From the NCBI RefSeq assembly GCF_009498035.1, contig NZ_CP034550.1, forward strand, positions 3,658,001 to 3,722,000: a stretch of 64,000 bases of DNA, given 5' to 3'. This DNA is from Saccharothrix syringae. Its GTDB lineage: Bacteria > Actinomycetota > Actinomycetes > Mycobacteriales > Pseudonocardiaceae. Positions 196 through 41,001 of the stretch are shown here, in pieces. The notes below the pieces were generated by a model. That model saw only the letters and a list, made by a program, of their open reading frames with translations, was not told where the DNA came from and did not search any database. Made by a program: the position numbers and the translations under genes. The stretch's first letter is position 1, and the number at the start of each line of letters is the position of its first letter.

Positions 196-1266
196 ATGGT
201 GATGTCCGCTGCCGCCGCGCCACCTCGCCTGGTCGTGGTCGGAGCCACCGGTGCGGTCGGCTCCGCCCTGCTGGAGCTGGTCGGCGAGAAGTCCTTCGCC
301 CACCGCGAGTTGGTGCTGTGCGCCTCGCACCGCTCGACCGGTCGACAGGTCGTCGTGGGCGGCGCGGTGCACCGGGTGCGCCACGCGTCGGCGGACGAGG
401 TCGAGTTCACCCGGGGTGACCTGGTCTTCCTCTGCGCCGGTGAGGAGGTCAGCCGTGGCTGGGCGAAGGCGGCCTGCGCGGCCGGGGCGCTGGTGATCGA
501 CCTCAGCGGCGCCTTCCACCGCGACCGGGACGTCCCGCTGATCGTGCCCGAGGTCAACGGCCACCTGCTGGACCGCCACCCCCACGACGGCCCGATCGCC
601 TGTCCCAGCCCGATGGCGGCGGCGCTGGCCCGGCTGCTGCACCGCTGGCAGGAGGCTTACGGCGTCCGCCAGGTGGTGCTGAGCACCTACCAGGCCGCCA
701 CCCGCCTCGGCCGCCAGGGGGTCGAGGAGTTGTTGGAGGGCGCCGAGTTGGCGTTGCAGGACCCGGACGCCGAGCTGCCCGCCCACAGCACGCCCTTCCC
801 GCTGGCGTTCAACGCGGTGCCGGTGGTCGGCCGGGTGCTCCACAACCGCTTCACCGCCGAGGAGCAGCGGCTGGCCGGTGAGACCCGTCGGCTGCTGGGG
901 CGGCCGTGGCTGAACGTCACGGCCACCTGCGTCCAGGTGCCGGTGGTCAGCGGCGACTCCGCCGCGGTGCTCGTGGAGGCGGAGTCGCCGGTGCCGCGCG
1001 GGGACCTCGTGTCGCTGCTGGCGTCGCTGCCCCGCGTGCGCGTGTACGACGCCGCGCCGCCGGAGAGCGCGGGGCCGACGCCGTTGACCGCGGTCGACCC
1101 GGACGTGGTGCACGTGGGCCGGGTGCGGGTCACCCCGCACGACCCGCGCGCCGTGTGGTTGTGGATCACCTTCGACAGCCTCCGCGCGGCCGGGGCGCTC
1201 AACGCGCTGCACACCGCCCGCCTGGCGCTCGCCCTCGCCGCGGAGCGGTCCGGCCGGACCGGTTGA
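196..1266 (+). CDS. Aspartate-semialdehyde dehydrogenase-like protein, catalytic Cys missing
   Basis: The 356-residue product has the ASADH fold layout. It has an N-terminal Rossmann motif (VVVGATGAVGSALLELV, residues 13-29), the VIDLSGAFHRD segment (about 100-110) typical of family substrate loops, and a C-terminal dimerisation/NADP half. In true enzymes the active-site cysteine lies in a P-N-C-[ST] motif. Here that segment reads CPSPMA (136-141), so the Cys position is Pro139 and the only nearby cysteine is three residues early. It is therefore probably not a functional aspartate-semialdehyde dehydrogenase. It could be an Usg-like paralogue or a different dehydrogenase. It stands apart from the next gene by about 550 bp, so its link to the glycosylation operon is uncertain. 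ATG 196 has an upstream purine-rich RBS; ATG 202 is an alternative. Confidence 0.75.
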   Translation: MVMSAAAAPPRLVVVGATGAVGSALLELVGEKSFAHRELVLCASHRSTGRQVVVGGAVHRVRHASADEVEFTRGDLVFLCAGEEVSRGWAKAACAAGALVIDLSGAFHRDRDVPLIVPEVNGHLLDRHPHDGPIACPSPMAAALARLLHRWQEAYGVRQVVLSTYQAATRLGRQGVEELLEGAELALQDPDAELPAHSTPFPLAFNAVPVVGRVLHNRFTAEEQRLAGETRRLLGRPWLNVTATCVQVPVVSGDSAAVLVEAESPVPRGDLVSLLASLPRVRVYDAAPPESAGPTPLTAVDPDVVHVGRVRVTPHDPRAVWLWITFDSLRAAGALNALHTARLALALAAERSGRTG

Positions 1267-1815
1267 GGGGGCCGGTCGGTTCTCGGCGAATCCCGTCCAG
1301 CTCCGAATAACCCCTGGCCGCTCCTGGCGAACCCCGTCCGGCTTCCGGCGAACCCCCACCGCCTCCCGACATACCGCACCCGCCACCCCCTGGCCAGCGG
1401 CCGGGGATGACGGGTGCGGGAAGGCGAAGGTACGGGAAGGGCGCCGCTCGTCAGCAGGAGACCGCCGGGCCGCGCAGGAGGGCGCCGCCCAGCAGGGCGC
1501 TGTCCCACCTGTCGTCACCCCGAGCGGTCGACGAGCCCCGGCCACCCGACCCTGTGGCGAGCGCCGAGACGCGTGCCGCGCCGAGGACTACCGCAGTGAG
1601 AACGAGACCGGCCAGCTCGCGGAGGGACCGGTGCCGAAGGTGATCCATCTCATCTCCAGTGATACCCGGGTGGTGTGATGCCGAAGTGCGTGGCACACCT
1701 GCGAGGTTGTCAGCACTCGCACGCGACTTCGAGTGCTCACCGGTGTCCTATGGTGGAGTGGCCACAAGTGGAAACCGGACGATGTGGATGCCACGCCCAG
1801 GGGGAGACAGGACCG
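1267..1815. other. Intergenic between ASADH-like gene and LuxR-type regulator
   Basis: About 550 bp without a supportable gene. At 1279-1351 there are imperfect repeats of a cggcgaa(t/c)cccgtcc-type unit. A weak hairpin (gaccgg/ccggtc) surrounds the stop of the upstream gene. The last ~150 bp, less GC-rich than the surroundings, is the probable promoter/leader of the regulator. Confidence 0.4.
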
Positions 1816-2838
1816 TTGGACGAGCAGCCTTTATTGGACGATGTCGTCATGGACGCCTACCAGGCCGGGGTGCGGGCCGGGGTCTTCGTCGACGAGGAGA
1901 TCGCCGCGCAGCTCGACCTGGAGCTGCCGAGGGTAGTCGAAGCCCGTAAACGGTTACAGGAGCTGCGGCTCCTCAGCGACGCGCCCGAGGGGGGCCCGGC
2001 GGTTCCGCTGGACCCGGAGATCGTGGAGGCCGAACTGGTCTCCAACCTGGAGATATCGATCTCCCGCCAGCGCCGCCAGATCTCCCAGATCCACCGCCAG
2101 TTGCGCTCGCTGGCCACCGTCTACCGCTCGACCGAGCACCACCCGCGGGAGAACGCCCTGATCCGGGTGCTGGACAGCGCGGCGGACGTGCAGCGCGAGC
2201 TCGACCTCGCCCGGCACCGCTGCACGCAGGAGCGGATGGCGCTGCAGCCGGGCGGCGGCCGCGCGGCCCACCTCCTCCAGGAGGACCTGGTCCACACCCA
2301 GGAGCTGCTGCGCCGCGGCGTGCGGATCCGGACGCTCTACCAGCACACCGCCCGGTCGAGCATGGCGACCCGGGCCTACGCCAAGCGGGTCGGCGACGCG
2401 GGCGGCGAGGTCCGCACCGCGGAGGAGCTGTCCGAGCGGCTGATCATCTACGACCGCCGCATCGCGTTCGTGCCCAAGGAGCGCCGCGGGCAGGAGGCGC
2501 CGGGGGCGGCGGTGGTCACCGACCCGACGCTCGTGGCCTACCTGTGCCGCTCCTTCGAGGCCGCCTGGCAGGTCGGCCAGCCCTTCCCCGAACCGGACCC
2601 GGTCGAGGACGCCCAGCACGTCGGCTCCGAGCTGCGGGCCTCGATCCTGCGGCTGATGGGCATGGGCCTCAAGGACGAGGTCATCGCGCGCCGCCTGGGC
2701 ATGGCCACGCGCACCTGCCGCCGGTACATCTCGACCTTGATGGAGGAACTGGGGGCCAGCAGCCGCTTCCAGGCCGGCCTGCTGCTGGGCCGCCGCGAGG
2801 CGTCCGCCGACGGGGAGGGCGCCGCGCACCGGTCGTGA
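1816..2838 (+). CDS. LuxR-family transcriptional regulator with two TTA codons
   Basis: The product is about 340 residues. An N-terminal TrmB/helix-turn-helix-like segment (MDAYQAGVRAG...VDEEIAAQLDL) is followed by a helical middle region and a C-terminal LuxR-type HTH (LRLMGMGLKDEVIARRLGMA, about 275-300). This layout is common in actinomycete pathway regulators. I chose TTG 1816 because a GGGGAGACAG ribosome site precedes it by 5-8 bases; ATG 1750 or 1675 in the same frame are alternatives. Leucine TTA codons occur at 1831-1833 and 1954-1956, extremely rare in this GC context, suggesting control by the bldA-type tRNA-Leu(UAA). It precedes the aminotransferase-glycosyltransferase operon and probably controls it (inference). 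A hairpin follows the stop. Confidence 0.75.
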   Translation: MDEQPLLDDVVMDAYQAGVRAGVFVDEEIAAQLDLELPRVVEARKRLQELRLLSDAPEGGPAVPLDPEIVEAELVSNLEISISRQRRQISQIHRQLRSLATVYRSTEHHPRENALIRVLDSAADVQRELDLARHRCTQERMALQPGGGRAAHLLQEDLVHTQELLRRGVRIRTLYQHTARSSMATRAYAKRVGDAGGEVRTAEELSERLIIYDRRIAFVPKERRGQEAPGAAVVTDPTLVAYLCRSFEAAWQVGQPFPEPDPVEDAQHVGSELRASILRLMGMGLKDEVIARRLGMATRTCRRYISTLMEELGASSRFQAGLLLGRREASADGEGAAHRS

Positions 2839-2899
2839 CCACCGGTCACCGGACCACCAGGTATAAGGCCAGGTCAGGCCCGTCCTGCGGGCGGGCTGC

Positions 2900-2931
2900 G
2901 GCCGAAAGTGGCTCGCTGTCCACTTCCGGCC
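2900..2931 (+). terminator. Hairpin after the LuxR-type regulator
   Basis: Arms 2900-2911 (ggccgaaagtgg) and 2920-2931 (ccacttccggcc) pair with one mismatch around an 8-nt loop, about 60 nt after the regulator's stop. There is no U tract, as is usual in actinomycetes. Confidence 0.5.
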
Positions 2932-3043
2932 GATCCACCTGAGGCCATTTGTCACCCCTCGAACAGGGGCCGTCATCCGTGCGAGCTTGGCGACGCGAGA
3001 TCGCCGAGCCGGTGGGATGCCGGCTCCTGGGAGCGGTCCCACG

Positions 3044-3080
3044 CGCCGCCCGGTGCCCCGCACCGGGACACCGGGCGGCG
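3044..3080 (+). promoter_or_regulatory. Hairpin in the presumed 5' leader of the aminotransferase operon
   Basis: A perfect 12-bp inverted repeat (3044-3055 cgccgcccggtg, 3069-3080 caccgggcggcg) with a 13-nt loop ends 26 nt before the operon's first ATG, just upstream of its GAGGAGAA ribosome site. It could be an attenuator, a translation-controlling stem or an mRNA-stabilising structure. Confidence 0.4.
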
Positions 3081-3106
3081 TGCCCATCCCGCGCAGAGGA
3101 GAACCG

Positions 3107-4537
3107 ATGGCAGACCTGATCGGTCTGGATGAGGCCGAGCGCCTGGACGTCGACGCGGTCCACGACCTCCACCGCCGGTACATCAACAAGAGCCAGGTCC
3201 GGCTGATGACCTCGTTCGGCTTCGGCCGGGAACTGGTCGAACGCGCCGAGGGCGCCTACCTGTGGACCAGCGACGGGCGCCGCATCCTCGACTTCACCGG
3301 CGGCGTCGGCGTGCTCAACCACGGCCACAACCACCCCCGCATCCTCGCCGCCCGCCGTCGGTTCCAGGAGCAGAAGCGGATGGAGGTGCACAAGACCTAC
3401 TTCTCGCCCTACCTCGCCGCCCTGGGCCACAACCTGGCGCAGCTGCTGCCGGGCGACCTCAACCGCTCCTTCCTGCCCAACTCCGGCGCCGAGGCGGTGG
3501 AGGGCGCGGTCAAGCTCGCCTACAAGTACCACCAGGGGCGGCGCAACACGATCCTGCGCTCCGACATCAGCTTCCACGGCAAGCTGCTCGGCTCCGGCGG
3601 CCTGACCGGCAGCACGCAGAACCACTTCGCGTTCCCGACCATCCCGGGCATCCGCACCTTCACCTACGGCGACCTGGACTCGGTGCGCCGGGCGCTGGCC
3701 GAGGCGCGGGACGCCAACGGGCGCAGCGACGTGTACGCGCTGCTGATCGAGCCGTTCAGCGCCTCCACGATCCGCTGGTGCTCGGAGGAGTTCCTGCGCG
3801 GGCTGCGGGAGCTGTGCACGGCCGAGGACATCGTGCTGATCTTCGACGAGATCTACACCGGGTGGGGCAAGACCGGCAGCCTGTTCTACTTCACCCGCTA
3901 CGAGGGCCTGGTCCCCGACGTGGTGACCACGTCCAAGTCGTTCGGCGGCGGCAAGTCGTCCATCTCGGCGTACGTGGCGCGCGAGCCGATCTTCCGCCGG
4001 GCCTACGACAACATGACCGACGCGATGATGCAGTCCACGTCGACCACGTACTACGGCTTCGGCGAGGAGGCGGCGACCGCGATCGAGGCGATCGCGATCG
4101 CCGTGGAGGAGGACTTCCCGGCGCGGGCGCGGGCGATCGAGGAGGTGCTGCGGCCGGGTCTGGAGCGCATCCAGAAGACCTACCCCGACCTCATCGCGGA
4201 GGTGGCGGGCGCCGGGGCGCTGCACGGCGTCTTCCTGGCGGGCGGGCCGAAGATCCTCGACATGGTGGGCAAGCTGCCGGTCGGCGGACCGGCCAAGGAC
4301 CCGCTGATCCGCACCAAGATCATCACCGCGGCGGTGATCGACGCCCTCTACCGCGAGCACGACATCTACACCTACAACACCCTCAACGGCCGCAGCCCGC
4401 TGATCGTCGCGCCGCCGCTGGTGGCGGGACCGGACGAGTGCGAGCGCTTCCTCGACGCCTTCGAGGCCGTGCTGGAGCAGGGAATGGGACGACTGGTGCG
4501 CCGCTTCGTGCGGGAGAGGGTGAGCTCGCTGTGGTGA
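3107..4537 (+). CDS. Class III PLP-dependent aminotransferase
   Basis: This 476-residue fold-type I (class III) aminotransferase has the usual markers. The N-terminal part has GGVGVLNHGHNHPRI. The cofactor region has PNSGAEAVEGAVKLAYKY, the PLP-contacting DEIYTGWGKTG (about 245-255), and the Schiff-base lysine in TTSKSFGGGKSS (about 282). Ornithine, diaminobutyrate and glutamate-1-semialdehyde aminotransferases share this fold; the substrate cannot be read from sequence. A strong AGAGGAGAACCG ribosome site precedes ATG 3107. The stop overlaps the epimerase start, so the two are translationally coupled. In context it could install an amino group on a sugar or side chain of the glycoconjugate (inference). 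Confidence 0.9.
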   Translation: MADLIGLDEAERLDVDAVHDLHRRYINKSQVRLMTSFGFGRELVERAEGAYLWTSDGRRILDFTGGVGVLNHGHNHPRILAARRRFQEQKRMEVHKTYFSPYLAALGHNLAQLLPGDLNRSFLPNSGAEAVEGAVKLAYKYHQGRRNTILRSDISFHGKLLGSGGLTGSTQNHFAFPTIPGIRTFTYGDLDSVRRALAEARDANGRSDVYALLIEPFSASTIRWCSEEFLRGLRELCTAEDIVLIFDEIYTGWGKTGSLFYFTRYEGLVPDVVTTSKSFGGGKSSISAYVAREPIFRRAYDNMTDAMMQSTSTTYYGFGEEAATAIEAIAIAVEEDFPARARAIEEVLRPGLERIQKTYPDLIAEVAGAGALHGVFLAGGPKILDMVGKLPVGGPAKDPLIRTKIITAAVIDALYREHDIYTYNTLNGRSPLIVAPPLVAGPDECERFLDAFEAVLEQGMGRLVRRFVRERVSSLW

Positions 4538-5637
4538 ACGGGAACCGACCGGACGACGTGCGCGACACCACCTCGTCGACGGGGCTGCCGTCCCGGATCG
4601 CGGTCACCGGCGCGGCCGGCGTGCTCGGCTCCCAGCTGGTGAGCAGGCTGCGCGCGGAGGGCGTGGAGGTGCACGCCTTCGACATCAGGCCGATCGAGCC
4701 CGCACCCGGCCTGGTGCCGTTCACCGGCGACATCCGCGACCGCAGGGCCGTGACCGAGGCGGTGACCGGCGTCGACGCCCTGGTGCACTGCGCCTCCGCG
4801 CTGCCCAGCTACCCGGCGGCCGACATCCGCTCGATCGTCGTGGAGGGCACCGGCACGGTGCTGGACGCCGCCCGCGCCGCGCGCGTCCCGCGGGTGCTGC
4901 ACGTGTCGTCCACCGCCGTCTACGGCCTGCCCAAGCTGGTGCCCACCCCCGAGGACCACCCGCGCGAGCCGGTGGACACCTACAGCGGCGCCAAGGCGGA
5001 GGCCGAGGTCATCGCGGAGCGGCACCGGGCGGCGGGGATGCTGCTGCCGGTGCTGCGGCCCAAGACCTTCCTCGGCCCCGGCCGGATGGGCCTGTTCGAC
5101 ATGCTCTACCAGTGGGCCGAGGAGGGCCGCCACTTCCCGGTCCTGGGCCGCGGGGACGTGCGCATCCAGATGCTGGCGCTCTCCGACCTGGTGGACGCGG
5201 TGCACACCGTGCTCACCGCGCCCGCCGACCGCGTCAACGACACGTTCAACGTGGGCGCGGCCGAGTTCGGCACGCTGCGCGAGGACTTCCAGGTCGTGCT
5301 GGACGCGGCCGGGCACGGCAAGCGGGTCAAGTCCATCCCGGGCCGCCCGGCGGTGGCGGTGCTGCGCGCCCTGGAGCGCACCGGCATGTCCCCGGTCTAC
5401 GGGCGGCTGCTGTTCAAGCTGCTCGCCGACTCCTACGTCAGCGTGGACAAGATCCGCGAGCGGCTGGGCTTCGTGCCGAAGTACTCCAACCAGGAGGCGA
5501 TCCTCCAGACCTACGCGTGGTGGCGCGAGGCGCGGGCCGCGGCGGGTGACGCCGGGACCGCCGGTCGCGCGACCGGCCGGACGAGCCAGGAGCCCTGGAA
5601 GCAGGGCGCCCTGAAGCTGGCCAAGGTCTTCTTCTGA
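4531..5637 (+). CDS. NAD-dependent epimerase/dehydratase (extended SDR)
   Basis: About 368 residues, extended short-chain dehydrogenase fold. The NAD-binding motif is VTGAAGVLGSQLV (near 25-37), the acidic cofactor residue is in HAFDIRP, and the active-site region has a conserved Ser/Thr (HVSSTAVYG) followed by YSGAKAEAE (YxxxK). Members oxidise, epimerise or dehydrate nucleotide-linked or lipid-linked sugars. Two in-frame GTGs (4531, 4534) overlap the aminotransferase stop; either could start translation. A decaprenyl-phosphoribose-epimerising role next to the UbiA gene is an attractive analogy to DprE2, but the protein is a generic extended SDR and that role is inference. Confidence 0.88.
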   Translation: MVNGNRPDDVRDTTSSTGLPSRIAVTGAAGVLGSQLVSRLRAEGVEVHAFDIRPIEPAPGLVPFTGDIRDRRAVTEAVTGVDALVHCASALPSYPAADIRSIVVEGTGTVLDAARAARVPRVLHVSSTAVYGLPKLVPTPEDHPREPVDTYSGAKAEAEVIAERHRAAGMLLPVLRPKTFLGPGRMGLFDMLYQWAEEGRHFPVLGRGDVRIQMLALSDLVDAVHTVLTAPADRVNDTFNVGAAEFGTLREDFQVVLDAAGHGKRVKSIPGRPAVAVLRALERTGMSPVYGRLLFKLLADSYVSVDKIRERLGFVPKYSNQEAILQTYAWWREARAAAGDAGTAGRATGRTSQEPWKQGALKLAKVFF

Positions 5638-5651
5638 CCGGTCGACCCCGA

Positions 5652-5677
5652 GGTGGCCGGCACCGGCGCCGGCCACC
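5652..5677 (+). terminator. Hairpin between epimerase and EEP-family genes
   Basis: Arms 5652-5661 and 5668-5677 (ggtggccggc / gccggccacc) form a 10-bp stem shortly after the epimerase stop and 50 nt before the next start. It could be a partial terminator or processing site within the operon. Confidence 0.4.
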
Positions 5678-5727
5678 CCACCCCGTCGTGCCCGAAACCC
5701 GTTCCCGCCCGAGGAGGCGACACAGGC

Positions 5728-6906
5728 ATGCCCACGACCAACCCGGCCGTCTCCCCGCGGCCGTCACCCGCCGTCGAGCAGGGGGGAGGACCGGGCGACG
5801 GCCGCACCGCGCGCACCCCCGCGGACGACGGGGGAGGGCGGCGCTGGTGCCTGGGCACCAGGGTGGTCGTGGCCGCCACCGCCGCCTGGTCCGCGTTCCT
5901 CGTCCTCCACGTGGTGCTGACCGGCCGCTGGTGGGTGTGGTTCCTGGTCGAGGCCACGCCCCCGGTGGTGTTCGTCGCGGTGCCGGCCCTGCTCCTGGCC
6001 GTCGTGTGGTGGGCCCGCCCGGTCCGCCGCCGGCTCACCCCCGTGCTGGTCGTGCTGCTGCTGGCCGGCGGGTACCTGGCCGGCGTCGGCCCCGGTTGGC
6101 GCGGCGACACCCGGCCCGCCGGACCGGGCGACGCGGAGGTGTCGATCGTCTCCTGGAACACCGACTACTGGGAGATGGACGACGACCCGGACGCCTTCTA
6201 CGCGTTCCTGCGGGAGAAGGACGCCGACGTCTACCTCCTCCAGGAGTACCTGCACTGGGAGGGCGAGGGGCCGGTCCTCATCGACCGCCTGGCCCGGCTG
6301 CGCGCCGAGTTCCCCGGCTACGAGGTCGTGGTGGAGGGCGAGCTGATCACCCTCTCCCGGCTGCCGGTGGCCGCCGTCCACGCCCGCGACGTGCCGTCGA
6401 CCGACAACGCCTGGTACTGGCAGGGCGGCAAGGCGCAGCGCACCGACCTGCTGGTCGGCGCCGGCCGGGTGCTGTCGGTCTACAACGTCCACTTCCCGGT
6501 GCCGTTCCGGGTCGGCGACAACCCGCTGACGAGCCGGTTCTGGAACTTCCTGGCCAAGCAGCACGACTGGCGGACGCGCGAGTTCGACGCGCTGCGGGCG
6601 GACCTGGCGGGCAACCCGAACACCTCCGTGGTGGCCGGGGACTTCAACTCGCCCTGGCCGGGGAGCCTGCTCCGGCTCGACGGCACCACCGCGCACTCGC
6701 CCGGGAACGGCCCGCTGCCCGCCTCCTCCTGGCCGCTGGCCGACTACCCGGTGCCCCGGGTGTGGCGGCTGGACTGGCTGTTCACCACCGGCGAGGTGTC
6801 CGTGCCGGAGTACCGGTTCACCGACAGCCGGGGCTTCTCCGACCACGCCGCCCAGGAGTTCACCCTCGTCGTCCGCGGCGCCGACCGGCCGTCCGGCAAC
6901 GGCTGA
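5728..6906 (+). CDS. Membrane-anchored endonuclease/exonuclease/phosphatase-family protein
   Basis: The 392-residue product has a charged N terminus, then about three hydrophobic segments (approx. residues 45-125), then an extracytoplasmic-type EEP domain. Motifs seen are SWNTDYWEMDDD, the metal-binding LLQEYLHW (Glu), GDFNSPW (Asp/Asn) and the terminal GFSDHAAQ (SDH). EEP enzymes cleave phosphoesters: nucleic acids, inositol phosphates, sphingomyelin, or lipid-linked phosphates. A GAGGAGGCGA site at 5711-5720 supports ATG 5728. Being membrane-bound beside a UbiA enzyme and glycosyltransferases, it may remove phosphate from a lipid-linked sugar, the step a PAP2 phosphatase performs after DPPR synthase in mycobacteria. 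That is inference. Confidence 0.8.
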   Translation: MPTTNPAVSPRPSPAVEQGGGPGDGRTARTPADDGGGRRWCLGTRVVVAATAAWSAFLVLHVVLTGRWWVWFLVEATPPVVFVAVPALLLAVVWWARPVRRRLTPVLVVLLLAGGYLAGVGPGWRGDTRPAGPGDAEVSIVSWNTDYWEMDDDPDAFYAFLREKDADVYLLQEYLHWEGEGPVLIDRLARLRAEFPGYEVVVEGELITLSRLPVAAVHARDVPSTDNAWYWQGGKAQRTDLLVGAGRVLSVYNVHFPVPFRVGDNPLTSRFWNFLAKQHDWRTREFDALRADLAGNPNTSVVAGDFNSPWPGSLLRLDGTTAHSPGNGPLPASSWPLADYPVPRVWRLDWLFTTGEVSVPEYRFTDSRGFSDHAAQEFTLVVRGADRPSGNG

Positions 6907-6941
6907 CGCCCGCGCCGCCGGCAACGGCTGACCGCCCGCGC
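6893..6941 (+). repeat. 25-bp tandem duplication across the EEP gene stop
   Basis: The unit ccggcaacggctgac followed by gcccgcgc occurs twice with a 25-nt period, starting at 6893 and 6918. The first copy carries the gene's last codons and stop; the second repeats the coding end and TGA in the same frame phase just downstream. Confidence 0.7.
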
Positions 6942-7046
6942 ACCCCGCCCGCGTCACCCCCGCACGCCCACCGTCCTGCCCTGATCCGACCACCCGCACC
7001 GCCGGGCGCCACCCGCGCCCGGTGCACCACCGAGAGGGATCTCACC

Positions 7047-8183
7047 ATGCGGCTACCCGACAGGTTCGACGTCACGGTGATGTTGGACTACTACGCGCCC
7101 TACGTCTCCGGCCTCACCGAGGCCGCCCGGATCACCGCCGAGGGCCTCGTCGCCCGCGGCTGGAAGATCGCCGTGGTCTGCGCCCGGCACGACCGCTCCC
7201 TGCCGACCCACGAGGTGATCAACGGCGTGCACGTCTTCCGCGCGCCGGTCCTCGCCCACGTCAGCCGCGGCTTCATCGCGCCCCACCTGCCGCTGCTCGC
7301 CTCGCGCCTGGCCGCCCGCTCCGACCTGCTCCACATGCACCTGCCCAACCCCGAGGCCGCGTTCGTCGCCGCGCTGCGGCGCAAGACGCCGCTGGTGGTG
7401 ACCTACCACATCGACACCTTCCTGCCGGACAGCCCGATCAACCGGTTCGGGATGCGCGTGGTGGACGCCTCCTGCGCCGCCGCGATCCGCCGCGCCGACC
7501 TCGTGATCACCAACAGCGAGGACCAGGCGCGCGGTTCCCGGATCTGGCCGGTGATCCGGCGCCGGGCGCTGCGCCCCATCGCCTCCCCGTGCGTGGACCG
7601 CAACGGCGGCAGCCCGACGATGCGCGAGGGCGACGGCCTGCACATCGGCTTCATGGGCCGCATCACCGTCGACAAGGGCATCGAGTACCTGATCCGCGCG
7701 TTCCGCGGCATCGACGACCCAGCCGCGCGGCTGCTGATCGCGGGCGACTACACCACCGTCGCCGGCGGCAGCAACATCGCGCAGCTGCGCGAGGAGGCCG
7801 GCAACGACCCGCGCATCCGCTTCACCGGGCTGCTGCGCGGCGAGCGGGTGCGCGACTTCTACGCCTCGATCGACGTGTTCGCGCTGCCCTCGATCTCCGA
7901 GTCCTTCGGCATCGTGCAGGTCGAGGCGATGATGGCGGGCAAGCCGTCGGTCACCACCAACCTGCCCGGCTCCCGCTACCCGGTGGAGGCGACGGGCTTC
8001 GGCCGCCTGGTGGAGCCCCGCGACCCGGTGGCGCTGCGGGAGGCGCTGCTGGAGATGGCGGCGCTGCCGCCCGAGGACCGGCAGGTCGGCCAGGAGGCCG
8101 CGACCAAGCTGTTCGGCGGGGAGACCTTCCTCGACGCGCACGAGGAGGCGTACCGCGCCATCCTGAACGGGGCGCGGTCGTGA
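7047..8183 (+). CDS. GT4-family glycosyltransferase
   Basis: A 378-residue GT-B fold glycosyltransferase. The N-terminal acceptor domain begins FDVTVMLDYYAPYVSG and contains HMHLPNPEA. The C-terminal donor domain has the family motifs GFMGRITVDKGIEYLIRAF, the variable sugar-nucleotide region, and the signature SESFGIVQVEAMMAGKPSV with the two conserved glutamates of the E-x7-E motif. Members retain anomeric configuration and use UDP-, GDP- or CDP-sugars at the cytoplasmic face of the membrane. ATG 7047 has a GAGAGGG ribosome site. The TGA overlaps the GTG of the UbiA gene, indicating translational coupling. Confidence 0.9.
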   Translation: MRLPDRFDVTVMLDYYAPYVSGLTEAARITAEGLVARGWKIAVVCARHDRSLPTHEVINGVHVFRAPVLAHVSRGFIAPHLPLLASRLAARSDLLHMHLPNPEAAFVAALRRKTPLVVTYHIDTFLPDSPINRFGMRVVDASCAAAIRRADLVITNSEDQARGSRIWPVIRRRALRPIASPCVDRNGGSPTMREGDGLHIGFMGRITVDKGIEYLIRAFRGIDDPAARLLIAGDYTTVAGGSNIAQLREEAGNDPRIRFTGLLRGERVRDFYASIDVFALPSISESFGIVQVEAMMAGKPSVTTNLPGSRYPVEATGFGRLVEPRDPVALREALLEMAALPPEDRQVGQEAATKLFGGETFLDAHEEAYRAILNGARS

Positions 8184-9172
8184 CCACGACACCGCCGCCG
8201 GTGTTCAAGCCCTACCGCGTCGGGGGGCGGTCGCTGACCCGGCTGGACGAGGCGGTCCACGTCGTCACCCGGGTCGACCCGCCCGCCGAGCCCCGCGGGT
8301 CGCGGCTGCCCGCCTGGCTGGCGCTGCTGCGGCCCCGCCAGTGGGTGAAGAACGCCTTCGTGCCGATCGCGCCACTGGCCGTGGACCCGGCCGCCGTGGT
8401 CCGCCACCCCGGGCTGCTGGCCGCCGCGGTGCTCGCGTTCGTCGCCGCCTCCAGCGCGGTCTACGTGCTCAACGACTGGCTGGACCGGGAACGCGACCGG
8501 CTCCACGCCACCAAGCGGCACCGGCCGATCGCCAGCGGCCGCGTCGGCCCGGTCCGGGCGCTGCTGCTGGGCGTCGGCTGCCTGGCCGCGCTCGGCGCGG
8601 CGGCCGTGGCACTGCCGCCGACCGCCCGCCTGGCGGTGGCCGCCTACCTGGTGCTGAACCTGCTGTACTGCCTGGTGCTCAAGCACCACGCGCTGGTGGA
8701 CATCAGCGTGGTGGCCTTCGGGTTCGTGCTGCGCGCGGCGGCCGGCTGCCTGGCCGTGGCCGCGCCGTTCAGCCCCACCATGATCGTGTGCGTCTACTGC
8801 GTCTGCCTGCTGCTGTCGCTGGGCAAGCGCCGGCACGAGCTGGCCGCGGTGACGCGGGCGGGCGAGGCCGCGGCCACCCGCCCCGCGCTGGCGGGCTACT
8901 CGGTGCCACTGCTGGACCAGCTGATGGCGGTGCTGGTCGGCTCCACGCTGATCAGCTACCTGCTGCACCTGCTCGAACCCGGTCGCCCCCAGGGCGCCCT
9001 GCTCGCCGTGGTCACCCTGCCCTTCGCGGTGTTCGCGCTGGCCCGCTACCTGCAACTGGTGACGGTGGACCGGCGCGGCGGCGAGCCGGGGCGCGACGTG
9101 CTGCGCGACCTGCCACTGCTGATCAACGCCGCGCTGTGGCTGCTGTGCCTGGCCGCGGGCCGGCTGTTCTGA
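8180..9172 (+). CDS. UbiA-family phosphoribosyl-/prenyl-transferase, DPPR synthase-like
   Basis: A 330-residue polytopic membrane protein of the UbiA superfamily. After a ~45-residue cytoplasmic tail comes LLRPRQWVKNAFV, then the first Asp-rich motif NDWLDRERDRLHATK (NDxxDxxxD), and several transmembrane helices. The LRPRQWVKN start and the NDxxDxxxDxxHxTKRxRPIAxG pattern are features I associate with decaprenyl-phosphate phosphoribosyltransferase (mycobacterial Rv3806c), which joins PRPP to decaprenyl phosphate. Quinone and heme prenyltransferases of the same superfamily look different here. The start is the GTG overlapping the upstream stop (GTGA). This gene suggests the operon builds a polyprenyl-phosphate-linked pentose. 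A true arabinan DPPR synthase would normally sit with the dprE1/dprE2/aft genes, which are absent here. Confidence 0.82.
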   Translation: MTTTPPPVFKPYRVGGRSLTRLDEAVHVVTRVDPPAEPRGSRLPAWLALLRPRQWVKNAFVPIAPLAVDPAAVVRHPGLLAAAVLAFVAASSAVYVLNDWLDRERDRLHATKRHRPIASGRVGPVRALLLGVGCLAALGAAAVALPPTARLAVAAYLVLNLLYCLVLKHHALVDISVVAFGFVLRAAAGCLAVAAPFSPTMIVCVYCVCLLLSLGKRRHELAAVTRAGEAAATRPALAGYSVPLLDQLMAVLVGSTLISYLLHLLEPGRPQGALLAVVTLPFAVFALARYLQLVTVDRRGGEPGRDVLRDLPLLINAALWLLCLAAGRLF

Positions 9173-9182
9173 GGTGATCCCG

Positions 9183-10205
9183 ATGTCGTCCGCACCGGTG
9201 ACCCCGACCGTCTCGGTCATCATCCCCAACTACAACTACGCGCGCACGCTGCGCCAGTGCCTGCAGGCCGTGTTCGACCAGACCTACCCGAACATCACCG
9301 AGGTCGTGGTCGTGGACGACGGCAGCACCGACGCCTCGCCGCACATCGCCGCCGAGTTCCCCTGCACGCTCGTGCGCACCGCCAACGCCGGGGTCTCCGC
9401 GGCCCGCAACACCGGCGTGCGGCACAGCACCGGCGAGGTCCTGTTCTTCCTCGACTCCGACATCGCCCTCGCGCCGGAGGCGGTGGAGCGGGCCGTCCGG
9501 CTGCTGACCTCCGACCCCCGGCTCGGTTTCGTCAGCGGCATCTACGACAAACAACCCCTGATCGACGACGGCCCGGTGGAGCGGTACAAGGTGCTCCACG
9601 GCCACTTCTGGCGGGTGCGCAACTCCGGCGAGACCCGGATGTGCAACTTCTCGATCGGCGCGATGCGCCGCGAGACCTACGAGCTGGCCGGGCCGCTGGA
9701 CACCAGCCTGCGGGCCACCGAGGACGTCGAGTACGGCGCGCGGCTGTCGGCGATGTCCACCGTGTGGATCGACGCGACGATCCTGGGCCGCCACGACGAC
9801 GACGACCGGCTCGGCGTGCTGCTGGGCAAGCAGTACCACCGCTCGGTGCCGCTGGTGGCGCTGTTCGCCGACCGGGGGCGGTCCCGGCCGCGGCTGTCGG
9901 ACACCGCCTACCGGCCGCTGGCCGTCGCGGGCACCGCGCTGGTCCTGGCGAGCCTCGCCGGCGCCGCGCTGTGGCCCGCGGCGGGCGCGGCGACGGCGCT
10001 GGCCGGGATGGCGCTGTTCGTGGTGGAGGAGCGGCGGTTGCTCAAGTTCCTGCGCGCCTCGACGGGACCGCGGCAGTTCCCGCTGATGGCCGGGCTCCAC
10101 CTGCTGATGAACGCCACCACCGCCGCCGCCGCGCTGGTCGGCGCGGCCCGCTGGGCGTGCTCACCGTCGTTCCGGCGGCTCTACGCGAACGGGGGCCGCG
10201 CGTGA
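9183..10205 (+). CDS. GT2-family glycosyltransferase with C-terminal membrane segments
   Basis: The product is 340 residues. The N-terminal GT-A domain starts SVIIPNYNYARTL. It has the nucleotide-binding VVVDDGSTDASP, the metal-binding FLDSDIA (DxD-like) and the acceptor-loop acid in ATEDVEYGARL (ED motif). Two or three hydrophobic segments lie near residues 240-315, so the enzyme is membrane-bound and may transfer a sugar onto a lipid-linked intermediate. ATG 9183 is preferred because GAGGTG lies 6-8 nt upstream; GTG 9174 is an in-frame alternative. The last codons overlap the next GTG (GTGA). Confidence 0.88.
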   Translation: MSSAPVTPTVSVIIPNYNYARTLRQCLQAVFDQTYPNITEVVVVDDGSTDASPHIAAEFPCTLVRTANAGVSAARNTGVRHSTGEVLFFLDSDIALAPEAVERAVRLLTSDPRLGFVSGIYDKQPLIDDGPVERYKVLHGHFWRVRNSGETRMCNFSIGAMRRETYELAGPLDTSLRATEDVEYGARLSAMSTVWIDATILGRHDDDDRLGVLLGKQYHRSVPLVALFADRGRSRPRLSDTAYRPLAVAGTALVLASLAGAALWPAAGAATALAGMALFVVEERRLLKFLRASTGPRQFPLMAGLHLLMNATTAAAALVGAARWACSPSFRRLYANGGRA

Positions 10206-11182
10206 ACGGCACCACCGCCCCGCCGGCGCGGTGGGCACGCGCCCTGGCCGTCGGGTCGGCGCTCGGCGCGTTCCTGCGCCGGCCCGGGGTGCGCCGCACC
10301 ACCACCGCCCTGGTCGTGCTGCTGTGCGCGGCGTTCCTGGTGCGGTCGCTGGCCGCCGACCGCGAGGCCGCGGGCGCCGCGCTGGGCCGCCTCGGCCCGT
10401 GGCTGCTGCCCGCCCTCGTCGCCGCGGTGGTCGGGCTGTGGCTGACCGCGCTGTCCTGGCGGGAGCCGCTGCAGGCCCTGTCCCGGCCGCTGGGGCGGGT
10501 GGCGGCGGTGCGCCTGTTCGCCGCCGGCAGCCTGGGCAAGTACGTGCCGGGCGTGATGTGGTCGATCGTCCTGCAGACCCGGCTGGCGGCGTCCTCGGGG
10601 ATCACGGTCTTCCACTTCACCGCGACCTTCGGGCTCTACGCCGCCGTCTCGCTGGCCACCGGCGCGGCGCTGGGCCTGCCCACGCTGCTGCGCTACGCCC
10701 ACGGCGGCTGGACGGCGCTGGCCGCGGCCGCCCTGGCCCTCGTGGCGCTGCTGGTGATGCCGTGGCTGCTGGCGGCGGCGGTGCGGCTGCTGCGCCAGGT
10801 GCCCGCGCTGGCGCGGCGCCTGGTCGAGGTGCCGGCGGACGTGCTGCGCCGCGCGGTGTGGCTGTGCGCGGTGTCCTGGGTGGTGACCGGGCTGCACCTG
10901 TGGCTGCTGGTCGTCGCGCTGGGCGCCGACCCGGTGGCCGCGCTGCTGCCGTGCCTGGGCGGTTTCGCGCTGGCGACGTCGGTGGCGAGCCTGGTCGTGG
11001 TGGTGCCCGACGGCATCGGGGTGCGGGAGGCGCTGCTGGCCGTCTCGCTCGCCTCGCTGCTGCCCGCGCCCGAAGCCGTCGCGGCGGCGGCGGCCAGCCG
11101 GCTCGTGCTCGCCGCCGCCGACGTGCTCGCCTTCACTTACGGTAGCCTCACCGCCCGCCTCCGTAACCTCGAACCCGCCTGA
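10202..11182 (+). CDS. LPG synthase TM-domain/flippase-type integral membrane protein
   Basis: A 326-residue protein with 7-8 predicted transmembrane helices. The segment LFAAGSLGKYVPGVMWSIV (about residues 102-120) is typical of the lysylphosphatidylglycerol synthase transmembrane domain (UPF0104) family: MprF flippase domains, AglD-like proteins and polyprenyl-glycan operon membrane proteins. There is no aminoacyl-transferase domain, so it is unlikely to make lysyl-PG by itself. Beside a UbiA enzyme and two glycosyltransferases, moving a lipid-linked glycan across the membrane is the most natural role (inference). The start is a GTG overlapping the GT2 stop. Confidence 0.82.
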   Translation: MNGTTAPPARWARALAVGSALGAFLRRPGVRRTTTALVVLLCAAFLVRSLAADREAAGAALGRLGPWLLPALVAAVVGLWLTALSWREPLQALSRPLGRVAAVRLFAAGSLGKYVPGVMWSIVLQTRLAASSGITVFHFTATFGLYAAVSLATGAALGLPTLLRYAHGGWTALAAAALALVALLVMPWLLAAAVRLLRQVPALARRLVEVPADVLRRAVWLCAVSWVVTGLHLWLLVVALGADPVAALLPCLGGFALATSVASLVVVVPDGIGVREALLAVSLASLLPAPEAVAAAAASRLVLAAADVLAFTYGSLTARLRNLEPA

Positions 11183-11208
11183 CCGGATTTCTGAAGAGAG
11201 GACGCCCC

Positions 11209-12189
11209 ATGCTCACCACCGCCTACGGCGACGAGGTCTTGGCGCGGCTGCGCGAGACCCGGGTGGCGCTCGGCACCATGTACTTCGGCACCACCGTCGA
11301 CGAGGCCACGTCCCGGGCGATCCTGGACCGGTTCGCCGAGCGCGGTGGCCGGCTGGTCGACACCGCCAACTGCTACTCGTTCTGGGTGCCGGGCGGCACC
11401 GGCGAGGAGTCCGAGCTGGTGATCGGCCGCTGGCTCGCGGACACCGGGTCGCGTGCCGAGGTGCTGCTGACCACCAAGGTCGGCTGCCTGCCCGACCCGC
11501 TCGACGGGCCGTTCCCGGAGTCCGCCGAGGGGCTCGACCCCGCCGTCATCCACAAGCAGTTCGAGCTGAGCGCCCAGCGGCTGGGCACCGACCGCGTCGA
11601 CGTCTACCTCACCCACGCCGACGACCCGAAGACCCCGTTGGCCGAGACCGCCCGGGCGCTGTCCGACCTGGTCCGTGACGGCCGCGTCGGCGTGGTCGGC
11701 GCCAGCAACTCGGCACCCGAGCGGCTGCGCGAGGCCACCGACCTGGCCGCGGACGACTCGATCGCCGCACCGCGGGTGATCCAGGTGCGGCACTCCTACC
11801 TGTGGCCCGACCCGGCCGCCGACATCCGCCCGCAGCGCCCGCTCGACCGGGAGATGGTGGCGCACGCGCGGGAGCACGGCATCGTCGTGCAGGGCTACTC
11901 GCCGCTGCTCCAGGGCGCGCTGACCCGGCCCGACAAGCAGTTGGCGCCCGAGTACCGCAGCGAGGACAACGAGCGCAGGCTCGCGCACCTCCGCGCCCAG
12001 GCCGAACGGCTCGGCATCACCGCCAACCAGCTCGCCCTGGCCTGGATGGTCGGCGGTGAGACGCCGGTGGTGCCGGTGCTGGGCGTGAGCAGCGTGGCGC
12101 AGCTCGACGAGGCCCTGGACGGCATCGAGTTCGAACTCCCGGCCGAGGTCCGCGCGGACCTCGACGCCCAGGCGCCGCTGGGCGGCTGA
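11209..12189 (+). CDS. Aldo/keto reductase
   Basis: A 326-residue (alpha/beta)8 barrel NADPH-dependent oxidoreductase. It shows LGTMYFGTTVDE, the catalytic Asp-Tyr pair region VDTANCYSFW (Asp and Tyr of the DxxxxY motif), a Lys in LLTTKVG, and a His in VYLTHADD. The C-terminal cofactor region includes ITANQLALAWMV and VVPVLGVSS. It most resembles the large group of sugar and carbonyl reductases (AKR11/12-like) found in deoxysugar and secondary-metabolite operons. A GAGAGGACG ribosome site precedes ATG 11209, 26 nt after the membrane protein, so it is probably the last gene of the operon. A strong terminator follows. Confidence 0.9.
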   Translation: MLTTAYGDEVLARLRETRVALGTMYFGTTVDEATSRAILDRFAERGGRLVDTANCYSFWVPGGTGEESELVIGRWLADTGSRAEVLLTTKVGCLPDPLDGPFPESAEGLDPAVIHKQFELSAQRLGTDRVDVYLTHADDPKTPLAETARALSDLVRDGRVGVVGASNSAPERLREATDLAADDSIAAPRVIQVRHSYLWPDPAADIRPQRPLDREMVAHAREHGIVVQGYSPLLQGALTRPDKQLAPEYRSEDNERRLAHLRAQAERLGITANQLALAWMVGGETPVVPVLGVSSVAQLDEALDGIEFELPAEVRADLDAQAPLGG

Positions 12190-12322: not shown

Positions 12323-12889
12323 ATGGGATTGTTGACCTATGGCATGAACGTCTCGGTGGACGGCTACATCGCCGACGCGAACGGCGACCTCGGCTGGAGC
12401 GTGCCGGACGAGGAGCTGCACCGGTACTGGAACGACCGGACCGGGCAGGTCGCCCTGTCGCTGTACGGGCGCAAGCTGTACGAGCTGATGTCGGCCCACT
12501 GGCCGACCGCCGGCCAGGCGCCCGACGTGCCCCCGGTGGAGGCCGAGTACGCCCGGCTGTGGCTCGCGATGCCCAAAGTGGTCTTCTCCAGGACCCTGGA
12601 GTCGGTCGACTGGAACTCCAGGCTGGAGCGCGGTGACGTGGTCGAGACCACCAGGAGGCTCAAGGCCGAGACCGACGGCCTGATGGAGGTGGGCGGCGCC
12701 ACGCTCGCCGCACCCCTGGTCCAGGCCGGCCTCGTGGACGAGTTCCACGTGCTGGTCACCCCGGCCGCGATCGGCGGCGGCACGCCGTTCTTCCCGGCGC
12801 TGAACAGGTGGTTGAAGCTGGAACTGGTGGAGAACCGCGCCTTCGGGTCGGGCGCGGTCCTGCTGCGCTACCGGACCGTCCGCGACTAG
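12323..12889 (+). CDS. RibD C-terminal/dihydrofolate reductase-family protein
   Basis: A 188-residue single-domain protein of the RibD_C (DHFR-like) family, widespread in actinomycetes and often annotated as dihydrofolate reductase family. Recognisable parts are MNVSVDGYIADANGDLGW (N terminus), LYGRKLYELM, and the NADPH-binding glycine stretch LMEVGGATLAAPLVQAGLVDEFHV. Substrates of stand-alone members are mostly unknown; it is unlikely to be the housekeeping DHFR or riboflavin RibD because the deaminase half is absent. ATG 12323 has no obvious Shine-Dalgarno, so it may be leaderless. It converges with the BMP lipoprotein gene across a shared terminator. Confidence 0.85.
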   Translation: MGLLTYGMNVSVDGYIADANGDLGWSVPDEELHRYWNDRTGQVALSLYGRKLYELMSAHWPTAGQAPDVPPVEAEYARLWLAMPKVVFSRTLESVDWNSRLERGDVVETTRRLKAETDGLMEVGGATLAAPLVQAGLVDEFHVLVTPAAIGGGTPFFPALNRWLKLELVENRAFGSGAVLLRYRTVRD

Positions 12890-38859: not shown

Positions 38860-41001
38860 TCACCCGGTGGCCGGCCGGGCCGGGTCGGGCGGGAGGGCGG
38901 CCAGTTGGTCCCGCACCGCCGCGACGTCCTGGGAATCCAGGTGCCGCAGCATGGTGAGCGCGCGGTGCAGGGTGGCACGCGCCTCGGTGCCCCGGCCGAG
39001 TGCCTGGTAGGCGGCGGCCATGTGGCGGAGCGTGGTGACCTGGGTGAAGTGGTTGCCCCGCTGCTCGCACAGCGCCAGCGCCCGCCGGTAGTGCTCCAGC
39101 GCCAGCTCGGGCCGCCCGGTGCCCGCGTGGGCGCGGCCCAGGCACTCCAGGACGTGGGCGTGGCCGTCGGGGTCGGTGCCCAGCGCCTCGAACAGGCGCA
39201 GCGCCTCCAGGCAGTGGGGCAGGGCCTCGTGGTGCTCGTCGAACTCCAGGTGGCACCAGCCGATGTTGTTCAGCGCCTTGGCCTGCCAATTGCGGTAGCC
39301 GCCCCGGGCGGCCAGGGCCAGCGCCGCGTGCGTGTCGTCCAGCGCCTGCGCGCGGTCGCGGACGAGGACGCCGAGGTAGCCCAGCGCGTAGCGGGTGTGG
39401 GCACGCCCGTGGTCGTCGTCGAGCTGGTCGAACAGGCGCAGGGCGTGCGCCAGGTGCTCGCGCGCCGGGGCGAGCCGCTTCCGCCGGATCAGCGCCCGCG
39501 CCAGGAGCCGGTGGGCCATCGCGAGCGAGGGCGGGTCGCCCCACCGCAGCGCCGCGTCGAGCGCCCGGTGGGCGGTGTCGGCGAAGTCCTGCCAGTGCCC
39601 GCGCCGGTCGAGGTAGGTGGCCATGGCGCGGGCCAGTCGGCAGGTGTGCCGGTCGGCGCCCGCGGCGGCGCTCTGCGCGACCACGGCGACCAGCACGGCG
39701 TGCTCGTCGGTGAACCACGCCAGCGCCTGCTGCCGGGTGCCGATGTCCGGCACGGTCACCCCGGCTCGCGGCGGCGTGGCGGGGAGCGGCTCCCACGGCG
39801 GGCCGATGTGGCCGTCCGCGGTGGTGGCGGTGTGCAGGTAGTGGTCGAACAGCCGGTGCGCGGCGGCCTCGCGGACCTCGGCGGGCTCCTGGGCGTCACA
39901 CCGCTCGCGGGCGTAGATGCGCAGCAGGTCGTGCACGCGGTACCGGCCGAGCCGGTTCGGCTCCACCAGGTGCGCGCGCGTCAGCTCGCGGGTCAGGTCT
40001 CGCGCCCGGTCGACGTCGACGCCGAGCAGGGAGGCCAGCGCGACCGGGGACAGGTCGGGACCCGGGTGCAGGCCGATCAACCGGAACAGGGCCGCCGCCG
40101 GTGCGCTGAGCGCGTCGTAGGACCACGAGAACACCGCTTTCACCGCCAGCCCGGGTTCGCCGCTGTCCAGCGCGTCGAGGCGGTCGCGCCGGTCGCGCAG
40201 CTCCGCGGCGAGCGCGCTCGGCGACAGGTGCGGTTCACCGACCAGGCGGGCCGCGACCAGGGACAGCGCCAACGGCAGGTGGTCGCACAGGCGCACCAGT
40301 TCGTCGACGGCTCCCCGGTCCGCGGCGATGCGCCCGGCACCCACCGTCGCGGTCAGCAGCTCGCGCGACTCGTCCTCGGTGAGCACGGTCAACGTCACCG
40401 TGTGGGCCCCGTACCGGGCGACCAGGTTGTCCAACCGGTAACGGCTGGTGACCACCACCCGGCAGCTCGGGCTGCCCGGCAGCAGGGGCTCCACCTGCCT
40501 GCTGTCGCGCGCGTTGTCCAGCACGATCAGCACCCGGCGCCCGGCCATCAGGCTGCGGTACAGGGCGACCTGCCGGTCGAGGTCGACGGGCCAGACCGCG
40601 CCGGGCACGCCCAGCGCGTCGAGGAACCCCCGGATCGCCTCACCGGGTTGCACCGGGACGCCCACCGCGTCGAACCCGCGCAGGTCCACGTAGAGCTGCC
40701 CGTCGGGGAACCGCTCGGCGCTGCGGTGCGCCCACTGCACCACCAGCGACGACTTGCCGACCCCGGCCATGCCGTCGATGACCGAGATCCCGACGGCGTG
40801 GCCCTGCGCGGGCACCGAGTCGAGCGCGGCCAGGTGCGTCACCCGCCCCGCGAAACCGGTCCTCGCGGGTGGCAGCTGGTGCGGGGCGATGACCGGGGGA
40901 GGGGGCTGGTGCACCCGCACGTCGCCGGCGATCGAATGGGCCTGGACCACCGCGCCGAAGACCCCGCCGACCACACCGTTGCCGGGTAAGGCGTCACCCA
41001 C
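38860..41001 (-). CDS. NB-ARC/TPR STAND regulator (AfsR-like without SARP domain)
   Basis: A 713-residue STAND ATPase. After a ~50-residue N-terminal region (VVGGVFGAVVQAHSIAGDV) there is an NB-ARC domain with the P-loop GMAGVGKSSLV (about 74-84), Walker B RRVLIVLDNARD, the CRVVVTSRYRL sensor and LPLALSLVAARL. A winged-helix region and about seven tetratricopeptide repeats (430-700) follow. This is the layout of AfsR minus its N-terminal DNA-binding domain. The SARP at 34618 could be the missing half, working in trans (speculative). Codon 5 is TTA (40989-40987), so production is probably linked to the same rare tRNA. The start is GTG 41001. Confidence 0.83.
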   Translation of the reverse strand: MGDALPGNGVVGGVFGAVVQAHSIAGDVRVHQPPPPVIAPHQLPPARTGFAGRVTHLAALDSVPAQGHAVGISVIDGMAGVGKSSLVVQWAHRSAERFPDGQLYVDLRGFDAVGVPVQPGEAIRGFLDALGVPGAVWPVDLDRQVALYRSLMAGRRVLIVLDNARDSRQVEPLLPGSPSCRVVVTSRYRLDNLVARYGAHTVTLTVLTEDESRELLTATVGAGRIAADRGAVDELVRLCDHLPLALSLVAARLVGEPHLSPSALAAELRDRRDRLDALDSGEPGLAVKAVFSWSYDALSAPAAALFRLIGLHPGPDLSPVALASLLGVDVDRARDLTRELTRAHLVEPNRLGRYRVHDLLRIYARERCDAQEPAEVREAAAHRLFDHYLHTATTADGHIGPPWEPLPATPPRAGVTVPDIGTRQQALAWFTDEHAVLVAVVAQSAAAGADRHTCRLARAMATYLDRRGHWQDFADTAHRALDAALRWGDPPSLAMAHRLLARALIRRKRLAPAREHLAHALRLFDQLDDDHGRAHTRYALGYLGVLVRDRAQALDDTHAALALAARGGYRNWQAKALNNIGWCHLEFDEHHEALPHCLEALRLFEALGTDPDGHAHVLECLGRAHAGTGRPELALEHYRRALALCEQRGNHFTQVTTLRHMAAAYQALGRGTEARATLHRALTMLRHLDSQDVAAVRDQLAALPPDPARPATG

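Follow-up and report, generated by a model that had tools for sequence, protein, structure and literature searches.

A recurrent linked gene unit of actinomycetes with a DPPR-synthase-like UbiA protein may build an amino-pentose glycoside on polyprenyl phosphate

Analysis of a 64,000-nucleotide stretch of the Saccharothrix syringae genome (hereafter the window; positions 3,658,001 to 3,722,000 of the forward strand of NZ_CP034550.1, in a genome that is a single contig of 10,929,570 bases) revealed that ten genes at 196–12189 belong to a recurrent linked unit and are not a chance grouping. An earlier note had described eight tightly coupled genes here, encoding a class III aminotransferase (AT3), an extended short-chain dehydrogenase/reductase (NDR), a membrane protein with an endonuclease/exonuclease/phosphatase-fold domain (EEP), a GT4-family glycosyltransferase (GT4), a UbiA-family protein (UbiA), a GT2 glycosyltransferase (GT2), an LPG_synthase_TM-type protein (LPG) and an aldo/keto reductase (AKR). 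All eight were present, contiguous and on the + strand, with frames consistent with a strong bias in third-position GC content; the co-inherited unit, however, has ten genes, since an aspartate-semialdehyde-dehydrogenase-like (ASADH-like) gene and a LuxR-type regulator gene precede them. We propose, with about even confidence, that this unit builds an amino-pentose-containing glycoside on polyprenyl phosphate, which would then be flipped and released.

The survey of the unit covered 97 loci, 17 from genomes of the collection and the best 80 of 198 named database loci (L053–L132); some were duplicates, and close relatives were over-represented. As the loci were picked through AT3 or, in five cases, through UbiA, the gene counts are partly fixed by construction. 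The same genes recurred together across these loci, where tblastn detected AT3 and NDR in all 97, EEP in 91, UbiA in 88, GT2 in 82 and LPG in 79, and less frequently AKR (50), GT4 (32) and the ASADH-like gene (5). LuxR-like proteins were found in 28 of the 97, many of them only 30–35% identical and on the opposite strand. Exclusion of seven duplicates (L053, L059, L066, L070, L080, L082 and L087) and of L023 left 90 loci including the window, and loss of L041 to the gene caller, a crude GC-frame method that mislabelled some gene lengths, left 89. NDR was present in, and adjoined AT3 in, all 89, accompanied by EEP in 83, UbiA in 80, GT2 in 79 and LPG in 77. Motif patterns were likewise crude: the histidine pattern of AKR fitted 6 of 48 proteins, and some EEP, GT2 and UbiA patterns did not fit all members of their families. 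Among the named hosts are Streptomyces, Micromonospora, Salinispora, Lentzea, Amycolatopsis, Herbidospora and Actinoplanes, and the occurrence was patchy, with 17 of 390 genomes in the family and 6 of 394 in a sample of the class (the S. syringae genome is counted in both). The distance matrices of AT3 and NDR tracked that of UbiA (r 0.81–0.85 over 75 loci, compared with at most 0.10 in shuffles), a correlation to which shared species history contributes.

The UbiA protein (8180–9172; Pfam UbiA, 83.9 bits) contains RPRQWVK and NDWLDRERD, in agreement with the motifs of LRPRQWVKN and NDxxDxxxD type reported earlier. Three of its four best NCBIfam models are decaprenyl-phosphate phosphoribosyltransferases (DPPR synthases), and the only solved relatives found in a PDB search were 8j8j (E 8.1e-35) and 8j8k, both Rv3806c. 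The housekeeping DPPR synthase with which the earlier note would also have compared it was not found, as a search of the S. syringae genome returned no second DPPR-type UbiA. Membership of the quinone or heme prenyltransferases, on which the earlier proposal would have foundered, was rejected; the best models are of DPPR type, and among the five PF01040 proteins of the genome the only match to the query was the query itself. For 79 cluster UbiAs of 250–420 aa aligned with Rv3806c, we compared the residues that contact phosphoribosyl pyrophosphate (PRPP), Mg, pyrophosphate and lipid phosphate, as listed in the accessible part of PMC10994848. Y70, N73, D77, K87, R90, Y138, K143 and K191 (Rv3806c numbering), the last being the polyprenyl-phosphate contact, were found in 79 of 79, and R22 and K28 in 77 and 78, respectively, the rest being gaps. 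On this alignment, the cluster UbiAs retain the machinery for the pyrophosphate of PRPP and for the lipid phosphate, and their contact to ribose O3 is changed throughout.

Six relatives in the genus that lack the cluster carry another type of UbiA, 33–39% identical to that of the window. In one of them (L016:1861–7196), it is annotated in a DprE1-DprE2-membrane protein-PAP2-UbiA operon; gene lengths in L017–L020 resemble this operon, and those in L021 do not. The 566-aa membrane protein of the L016 operon matched nothing in Pfam or NCBIfam; it is possibly a GT-C glycosyltransferase that has escaped recognition. UbiA was missing from four distinct clusters with flanking sequence (L048, L050, L051 and L052), and also from L057, L084, L099 and L120, which lie at contig ends. 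All four UbiA-less genomes encode another DPPR-type UbiA elsewhere (37–38% identity); its neighbourhood contains PAP2 with DprE1/DprE2 equivalog matches in L142 and PAP2 with Pfam domains that match DprE1/DprE2 in L141, and the neighbourhoods L140 and L143 were compared by gene lengths only. The UbiA-less clusters would fit a precursor shared between the two systems, polyprenyl-P-ribose. It is extremely improbable that the unit is itself an ordinary arabinan operon, of the decaprenylphosphoryl arabinose (DPA) pathway, with a few extra genes. The UbiA family is common to both, but the unit has none of DprE1, DprE2, PAP2 and GT-C, unlike the canonical operons of L016, L141 and L142. The earlier statement that ordinary arabinan genes are absent held up: Pfam detected no DprE1, DprE2 or PAP2 in the ten genes (dprE1 was not searched genome-wide), and Emb-type arabinosyltransferase (PF04602) had 0 matches in the S. 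syringae genome, whereas 7 of the 18 genomes searched have one. The gene content of the unit contradicts an arabinan operon, and the emb-less genome speaks against it as well.

The LPG protein (10202–11182) passed the gathering cut-off of Pfam LPG_synthase_TM (51.9 vs 33.4 bits) and scored under the cut-off of NCBIfam TIGR00374 (26.2 vs 43.2). Gene calls placed no LPG in 12 loci; among these, L014 (whose sequence begins only 2 kb upstream of AT3), L015, L042 and L043 share one multi-helix family with 9–13 predicted helices, L091, L096 and L097 have an LPG detected by tblastn, L057, L061, L099 and L120 are cut off by the end of a contig, and L111 is a genuine exception with no flippase in its surroundings. 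L041 also has the multi-helix family in place of LPG, as judged by tblastn only, which brings the number of such relatives to five. The AlphaFold2 (AF2) model of this family was weak (pLDDT 60.5); its five best fold matches were WzxE, at a root-mean-square deviation of 10–11 with only two reaching E 0.001, and the next two were a MATE protein and MurJ. "O-antigen/teichoic acid export" is the source name of 3 of 27 homologues, consistent with a WzxE-like protein, and sequence searches of Pfam and PDB with this family gave no useful match. This apparent replacement by a non-homologous WzxE-like protein in one lineage supports the flippase role that had been suggested for LPG.

The presence of two kinds of flippase candidate at these loci also speaks for envelope decoration, in which the unit would supply a lipid-linked amino-pentose donor, a GT-C encoded elsewhere would transfer the sugar to a cell-wall glycan, and EEP would only recycle the carrier. 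Published three-component systems, as described in the accessible part of PMC11127046, rely on a flippase and a GT-C besides PRPP-charged polyprenyl phosphate. We nevertheless regard this explanation as unlikely, if worth serious attention. A screen of the operon runs of the 89 loci for unassigned genes with at least six transmembrane (TM) helices returned only the WzxE-like family, MMPL, a membrane family without assigned identity (component 10) and three singletons, so that no GT-C candidate recurs there apart from component 10; no genome-wide search was made for other GT-C families. The lack of an Emb-type enzyme in the genome and the patchy distribution of the cluster also argue against it.

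The EEP protein (5728–6906, alternative start 5653; Pfam Exo_endo_phos, 47.8 bits) combines three TM helices with the EEP domain, as seen in hydropathy and in an AF2 model with N-terminal helices (pLDDT 85.8). An alignment of the window protein with 33 of 35 thinned proteins (from 113) revealed invariant or near-invariant columns that include E173, H255, D305, N307, D349 and H373. Foldseek with the model gave human neutral sphingomyelinase as the top match, with DNA-acting and other EEP enzymes next in rank. The topology test needed exactly three readable N-terminal TM segments, which 61 of 120 EEP proteins had; the charge pattern indicated a cytoplasmic N-terminus, and hence a domain on the outside, in 54 of these 61, including the window protein, and the EEP domain is accordingly predicted to be extracytoplasmic. 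GT2 is fused to EEP in L125 and L127, and to LPG in L048, L103, L105, L115, L118 and L123; these fusions suggest that GT2, LPG and EEP may work in sequence. EEP-fold enzymes include phosphatases, and PAP2, which adjoins UbiA in the canonical operons scanned, is absent from the window unit; EEP might therefore stand in for PAP2 as a 5'-phosphatase acting on the ribosyl lipid, with a product that stays lipid-linked. The predicted outside position of the domain, whereas PRPP is cytoplasmic, argues against this role and likewise against the sugar phosphatase of the earlier note, and we consider it improbable, at little better than one chance in ten.

AT3 (3107–4537; Pfam Aminotran_3, 210.8 bits) has its pyridoxal phosphate (PLP) lysine in SKSFGGG, and the motif SK[ST][FML]GGG occurred in 89 of 91 AT3 proteins. 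Its nearest solved relatives are putrescine aminotransferase and 4ppm, entitled "Aminotransferase", its best NCBIfam models are PigE (240.5 bits vs a cut-off of 850) and putrescine aminotransferase, and the 120 listed database relatives carry only generic names or none. A basic/aromatic C-terminal tail, approximately GLxRLLxRFVKEKVSSLW, is present in most of twelve sampled rows and possibly makes membrane or partner contacts. NDR (4531–5637; Pfam Epimerase, 114.4 bits) keeps TGxxGxxG and YxxxK, and its best NCBIfam model is OleD (2-alkyl-3-oxoalkanoate reductase), at 82.6 vs a cut-off of 580. In the pathways of aminoglycosides and of 5'-amino-5'-deoxyuridine, the substrates of class III aminotransferases are sugar aldehydes. 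The PigE/putrescine aminotransferase and OleD models would, on the other hand, agree with an aminolipid, if AT3 and NDR acted on an aliphatic aldehyde or long-chain lipid that UbiA and the glycosyltransferases then glycosylated, no sugar being aminated. This too we hold improbable, with a likelihood of roughly one in eight, because the unit has no acyl-activating enzyme, NDR falls far under the OleD cut-off, and UbiA retains the polyprenyl-phosphate contact K191.

Under the polyprenyl phosphate reading that we prefer, homology and the conserved site support transfer of phosphoribose from PRPP to polyprenyl phosphate by UbiA at the cytoplasmic face. The 5'-phosphate would be removed by an enzyme outside those assigned in the unit; NDR would then oxidise (or epimerise) the lipid-linked pentose, and AT3 would convert the resulting aldehyde or ketone to an amine. 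As a first guess, the amine would sit at the terminal C5, because relatives of AT3 use aldehydes. GT4 (7047–8183; matches to GT4 enzymes in PDB and NCBIfam) and GT2 (9183–10205, alternative start 9174, with C-terminal TM helices; Pfam Glycos_transf_2, 108.4 bits) belong to known families and would add more sugars on the same face, presumably to this acceptor. The LPG-type protein would flip the lipid-linked glycoside, as the flippase swap supports, and the outward EEP, judging from its fold and predicted topology, would cut the phosphodiester, free the glycoside or its sugar phosphate and recycle the carrier. AKR (11209–12189; Pfam Aldo_ket_red, 177.6 bits) and the ASADH-like protein would be accessory. 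The sequences carry the gene content, the co-inheritance, the conservation of the PRPP site and, in one lineage, the flippase swap; the order of reactions, including the close in amination and export given by the earlier note, the amination of a sugar, release by EEP and the nature of the product we infer. Given the patchy occurrence of the cluster, a specialised metabolite that is secreted or placed at the surface is the probable product. A more specific proposal, which we put forward tentatively and hold possible at about one chance in three, is an undescribed class of actinobacterial metabolites, PRPP-derived amino-pentofuranosides that are extended by GT2 and GT4, flipped and released outside the cell by EEP; the lipid would then carry a small secreted molecule and not act as a polymer donor.

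Several observations weigh against this pathway. The window UbiA missed the NCBIfam equivalog cut-offs for DPPR synthase (185.8 vs 234, 177.8 vs 207 and 139.4 vs 474); the DPPR-synthase-like assignment of the earlier note thus stands for the type and the largely conserved PRPP site and fails at the equivalog level, and that the protein works like a DPPR synthase is supported, whereas that it is one is not. In the 79 aligned proteins, Q135, the contact to ribose O3, is replaced by N in 64 and S in 15, Y157 by F in all 79 (Phe is reported for some mycobacteria in the accessible part of PMC10994848), and K208 by P in 78 and S in 1, with N160, F182 and P235 at these sites in the window protein; as the changes extend throughout the cluster UbiAs, the donor or acceptor may differ from that of DPPR synthase. 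In a tree of every third cluster UbiA and four rows from the S. syringae genome, picked by hydrophobicity from open frames and perhaps not all in the right frame, the cluster UbiAs did not form one clade (5 changes), although the very long rows from this genome (branches 5.9–7.8) disturb the tree, and only the canonical group, one clade with support of 100/100, was relied on. The UbiA-less genomes fall in only two genera of the collection. All ten genes of the unit fit other families than GT-C or a recognisable cytoplasm-facing phosphatase, and no candidate for either was found among them. The amination of a sugar by AT3 is conjectural. The likeness of EEP to sphingomyelinase is one of fold only (TMq 0.46) and common to DNA-acting EEPs, and the charge pattern contradicts an outside domain in 7 of the 61 testable proteins, 59 of the 120 being unreadable. 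Finally, L111 (4197–7500) contains AT3-NDR-UbiA only, with no EEP, GT2 or flippase in the 4 kb before and the 5 kb after it; this minimal set is a degenerate form, or else genes at another site complete it.

Comparison of the gene order delimited the unit. AT3 and NDR overlap by 7 bases, and GT4/UbiA and GT2/LPG by 4 bases each; the gaps UbiA-GT2 and LPG-AKR are under 30 bases, that between EEP and GT4 is about 140, and that between NDR and EEP is 15 if EEP starts at 5653 and 90 if it starts at 5728. The upstream pair, the ASADH-like gene (196–1266, +; Pfam Semialdhyde_dh/_dhC and NCBIfam ASADH models) and the LuxR-type regulator gene with a C-terminal GerE helix-turn-helix (1675–2838, +; Pfam GerE, 24.3 bits), stands further apart, with gaps of about 410 and 270 bases, and is kept in a genus relative (L012), Actinosynnema pretiosum (L013) and two Streptomyces (L054 and L055). 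In blastn with the first 22 kb of the window, similarity to L012/L013 ran in blocks from 46 to about 1,270 and from about 1,600 to 12,184, and that to L054/L055 in pieces from about 420 to 12,186; in all four it ended with the AKR gene at about 12,186. Because bacteria outside the order of the window share the identical ten-gene order, the pattern suggests that the unit has moved between bacteria as one block. A protein with a RibD C-terminal domain is encoded directly 3' of the unit (12323–12889) and is not conserved with it; it was ruled out as a member, as the DNA similarity to the four loci stops at AKR. The usual catalytic Cys motif of ASADH was absent from the five called orthologues of the ASADH-like protein including that of the window, some with poorly called starts, and the protein is possibly a repurposed enzyme. 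A plasmid search returned two matching records (5.7 and 11.9 Mb), neither of them annotated at the site of the match.

Other genes accompany the unit in part of the loci, their families being named from one to three representatives each. They include a NodB-like polysaccharide deacetylase (L121:8114–8827; family in 10 loci, two Streptomyces among them), an MMPL protein (L106:16672–18561; family in 12 loci, of which the L098 member gave no match), methyltransferases (L088, L014 and L096) and regulators. The deacetylase and methyltransferase genes suggest that the glycoside of these lineages would be decorated and possibly contain N-acetylglucosamine. Elsewhere in the window, an NB-ARC/TPR protein is encoded at 38860–41001, and a family of this type, of which one member was scanned, also lies near AT3 clusters in 32 loci. 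A 1709-aa protein (46897–52026) with AAA_11/AAA_12 helicase and MTES_1575 nuclease domains has a defence-like architecture; the tRNA-Gly predicted by ARAGORN at 50946–51034 falls inside its gene and is probably false.

PRPP-charged polyprenyl phosphate is known as a source of arabinan and of pentofuranose side chains. In Streptomyces, Micromonospora, Salinispora, Amycolatopsis and others, the clusters link this first step to an aminotransferase and to a phosphodiesterase that is predicted to face outwards. If the proposed pathway is correct, these genomes would encode amino-pentose metabolites as a family, presumably missed by genome-mining rules that look for polyketide synthases or nonribosomal peptide synthetases, together with an enzyme set that remodels lipid-linked ribose otherwise than through DprE1.

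No characterised cluster with this gene set was recognised in the open-licence literature, in agreement with the earlier note, and comparison was made with the systems that share single components. AT3 has the domain and PLP lysine motif of class III aminotransferases such as putrescine aminotransferase and PigE, but is a distinct subfamily, far under the PigE cut-off and with its own C-terminal tail. The EEP protein can be likened, by description, to VanJ/StaP, membrane-anchored EEP-type proteins of actinomycetes; the window EEP lies in a biosynthetic unit. VanJ is a membrane protein that raises teicoplanin resistance, according to the accessible part of PMC4790382. The MOP lipid-glycan flippases WzxE and MurJ are represented by the WzxE-like protein that stands in for LPG in five relatives, whereas the flippase of the window unit is of the unrelated LPG_synthase_TM type. 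With Rv3806c of the DPA pathway, the window UbiA has in common the fold, the residues for PRPP, Mg and pyrophosphate, and the polyprenyl-phosphate contact; it differs in Q135, replaced by N or S, and the unit in its lack of DprE1/DprE2/PAP2/GT-C and its additional aminotransferase, NDR, EEP, GT4, GT2 and LPG flippase. The nearest published pathway found is that of the three-component pentofuranose systems, which in Citrobacter youngae comprise PPPRS, a MATE flippase and GT136 (PMC11127046, accessible part). The main text of that paper does not contain the word "Streptomyces", and no such amino-pentose step was found in the accessible part, which mentions the undP-aminoarabinose of lipid A modification. 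As far as the same part describes them, these systems have in common with the window unit a PRPP-charged polyprenyl phosphate and a dedicated flippase (by family only), and some include an epimerase; the window unit differs in having no HAD phosphatase domain and no GT-C, and in adding an aminotransferase and a predicted extracytoplasmic EEP.

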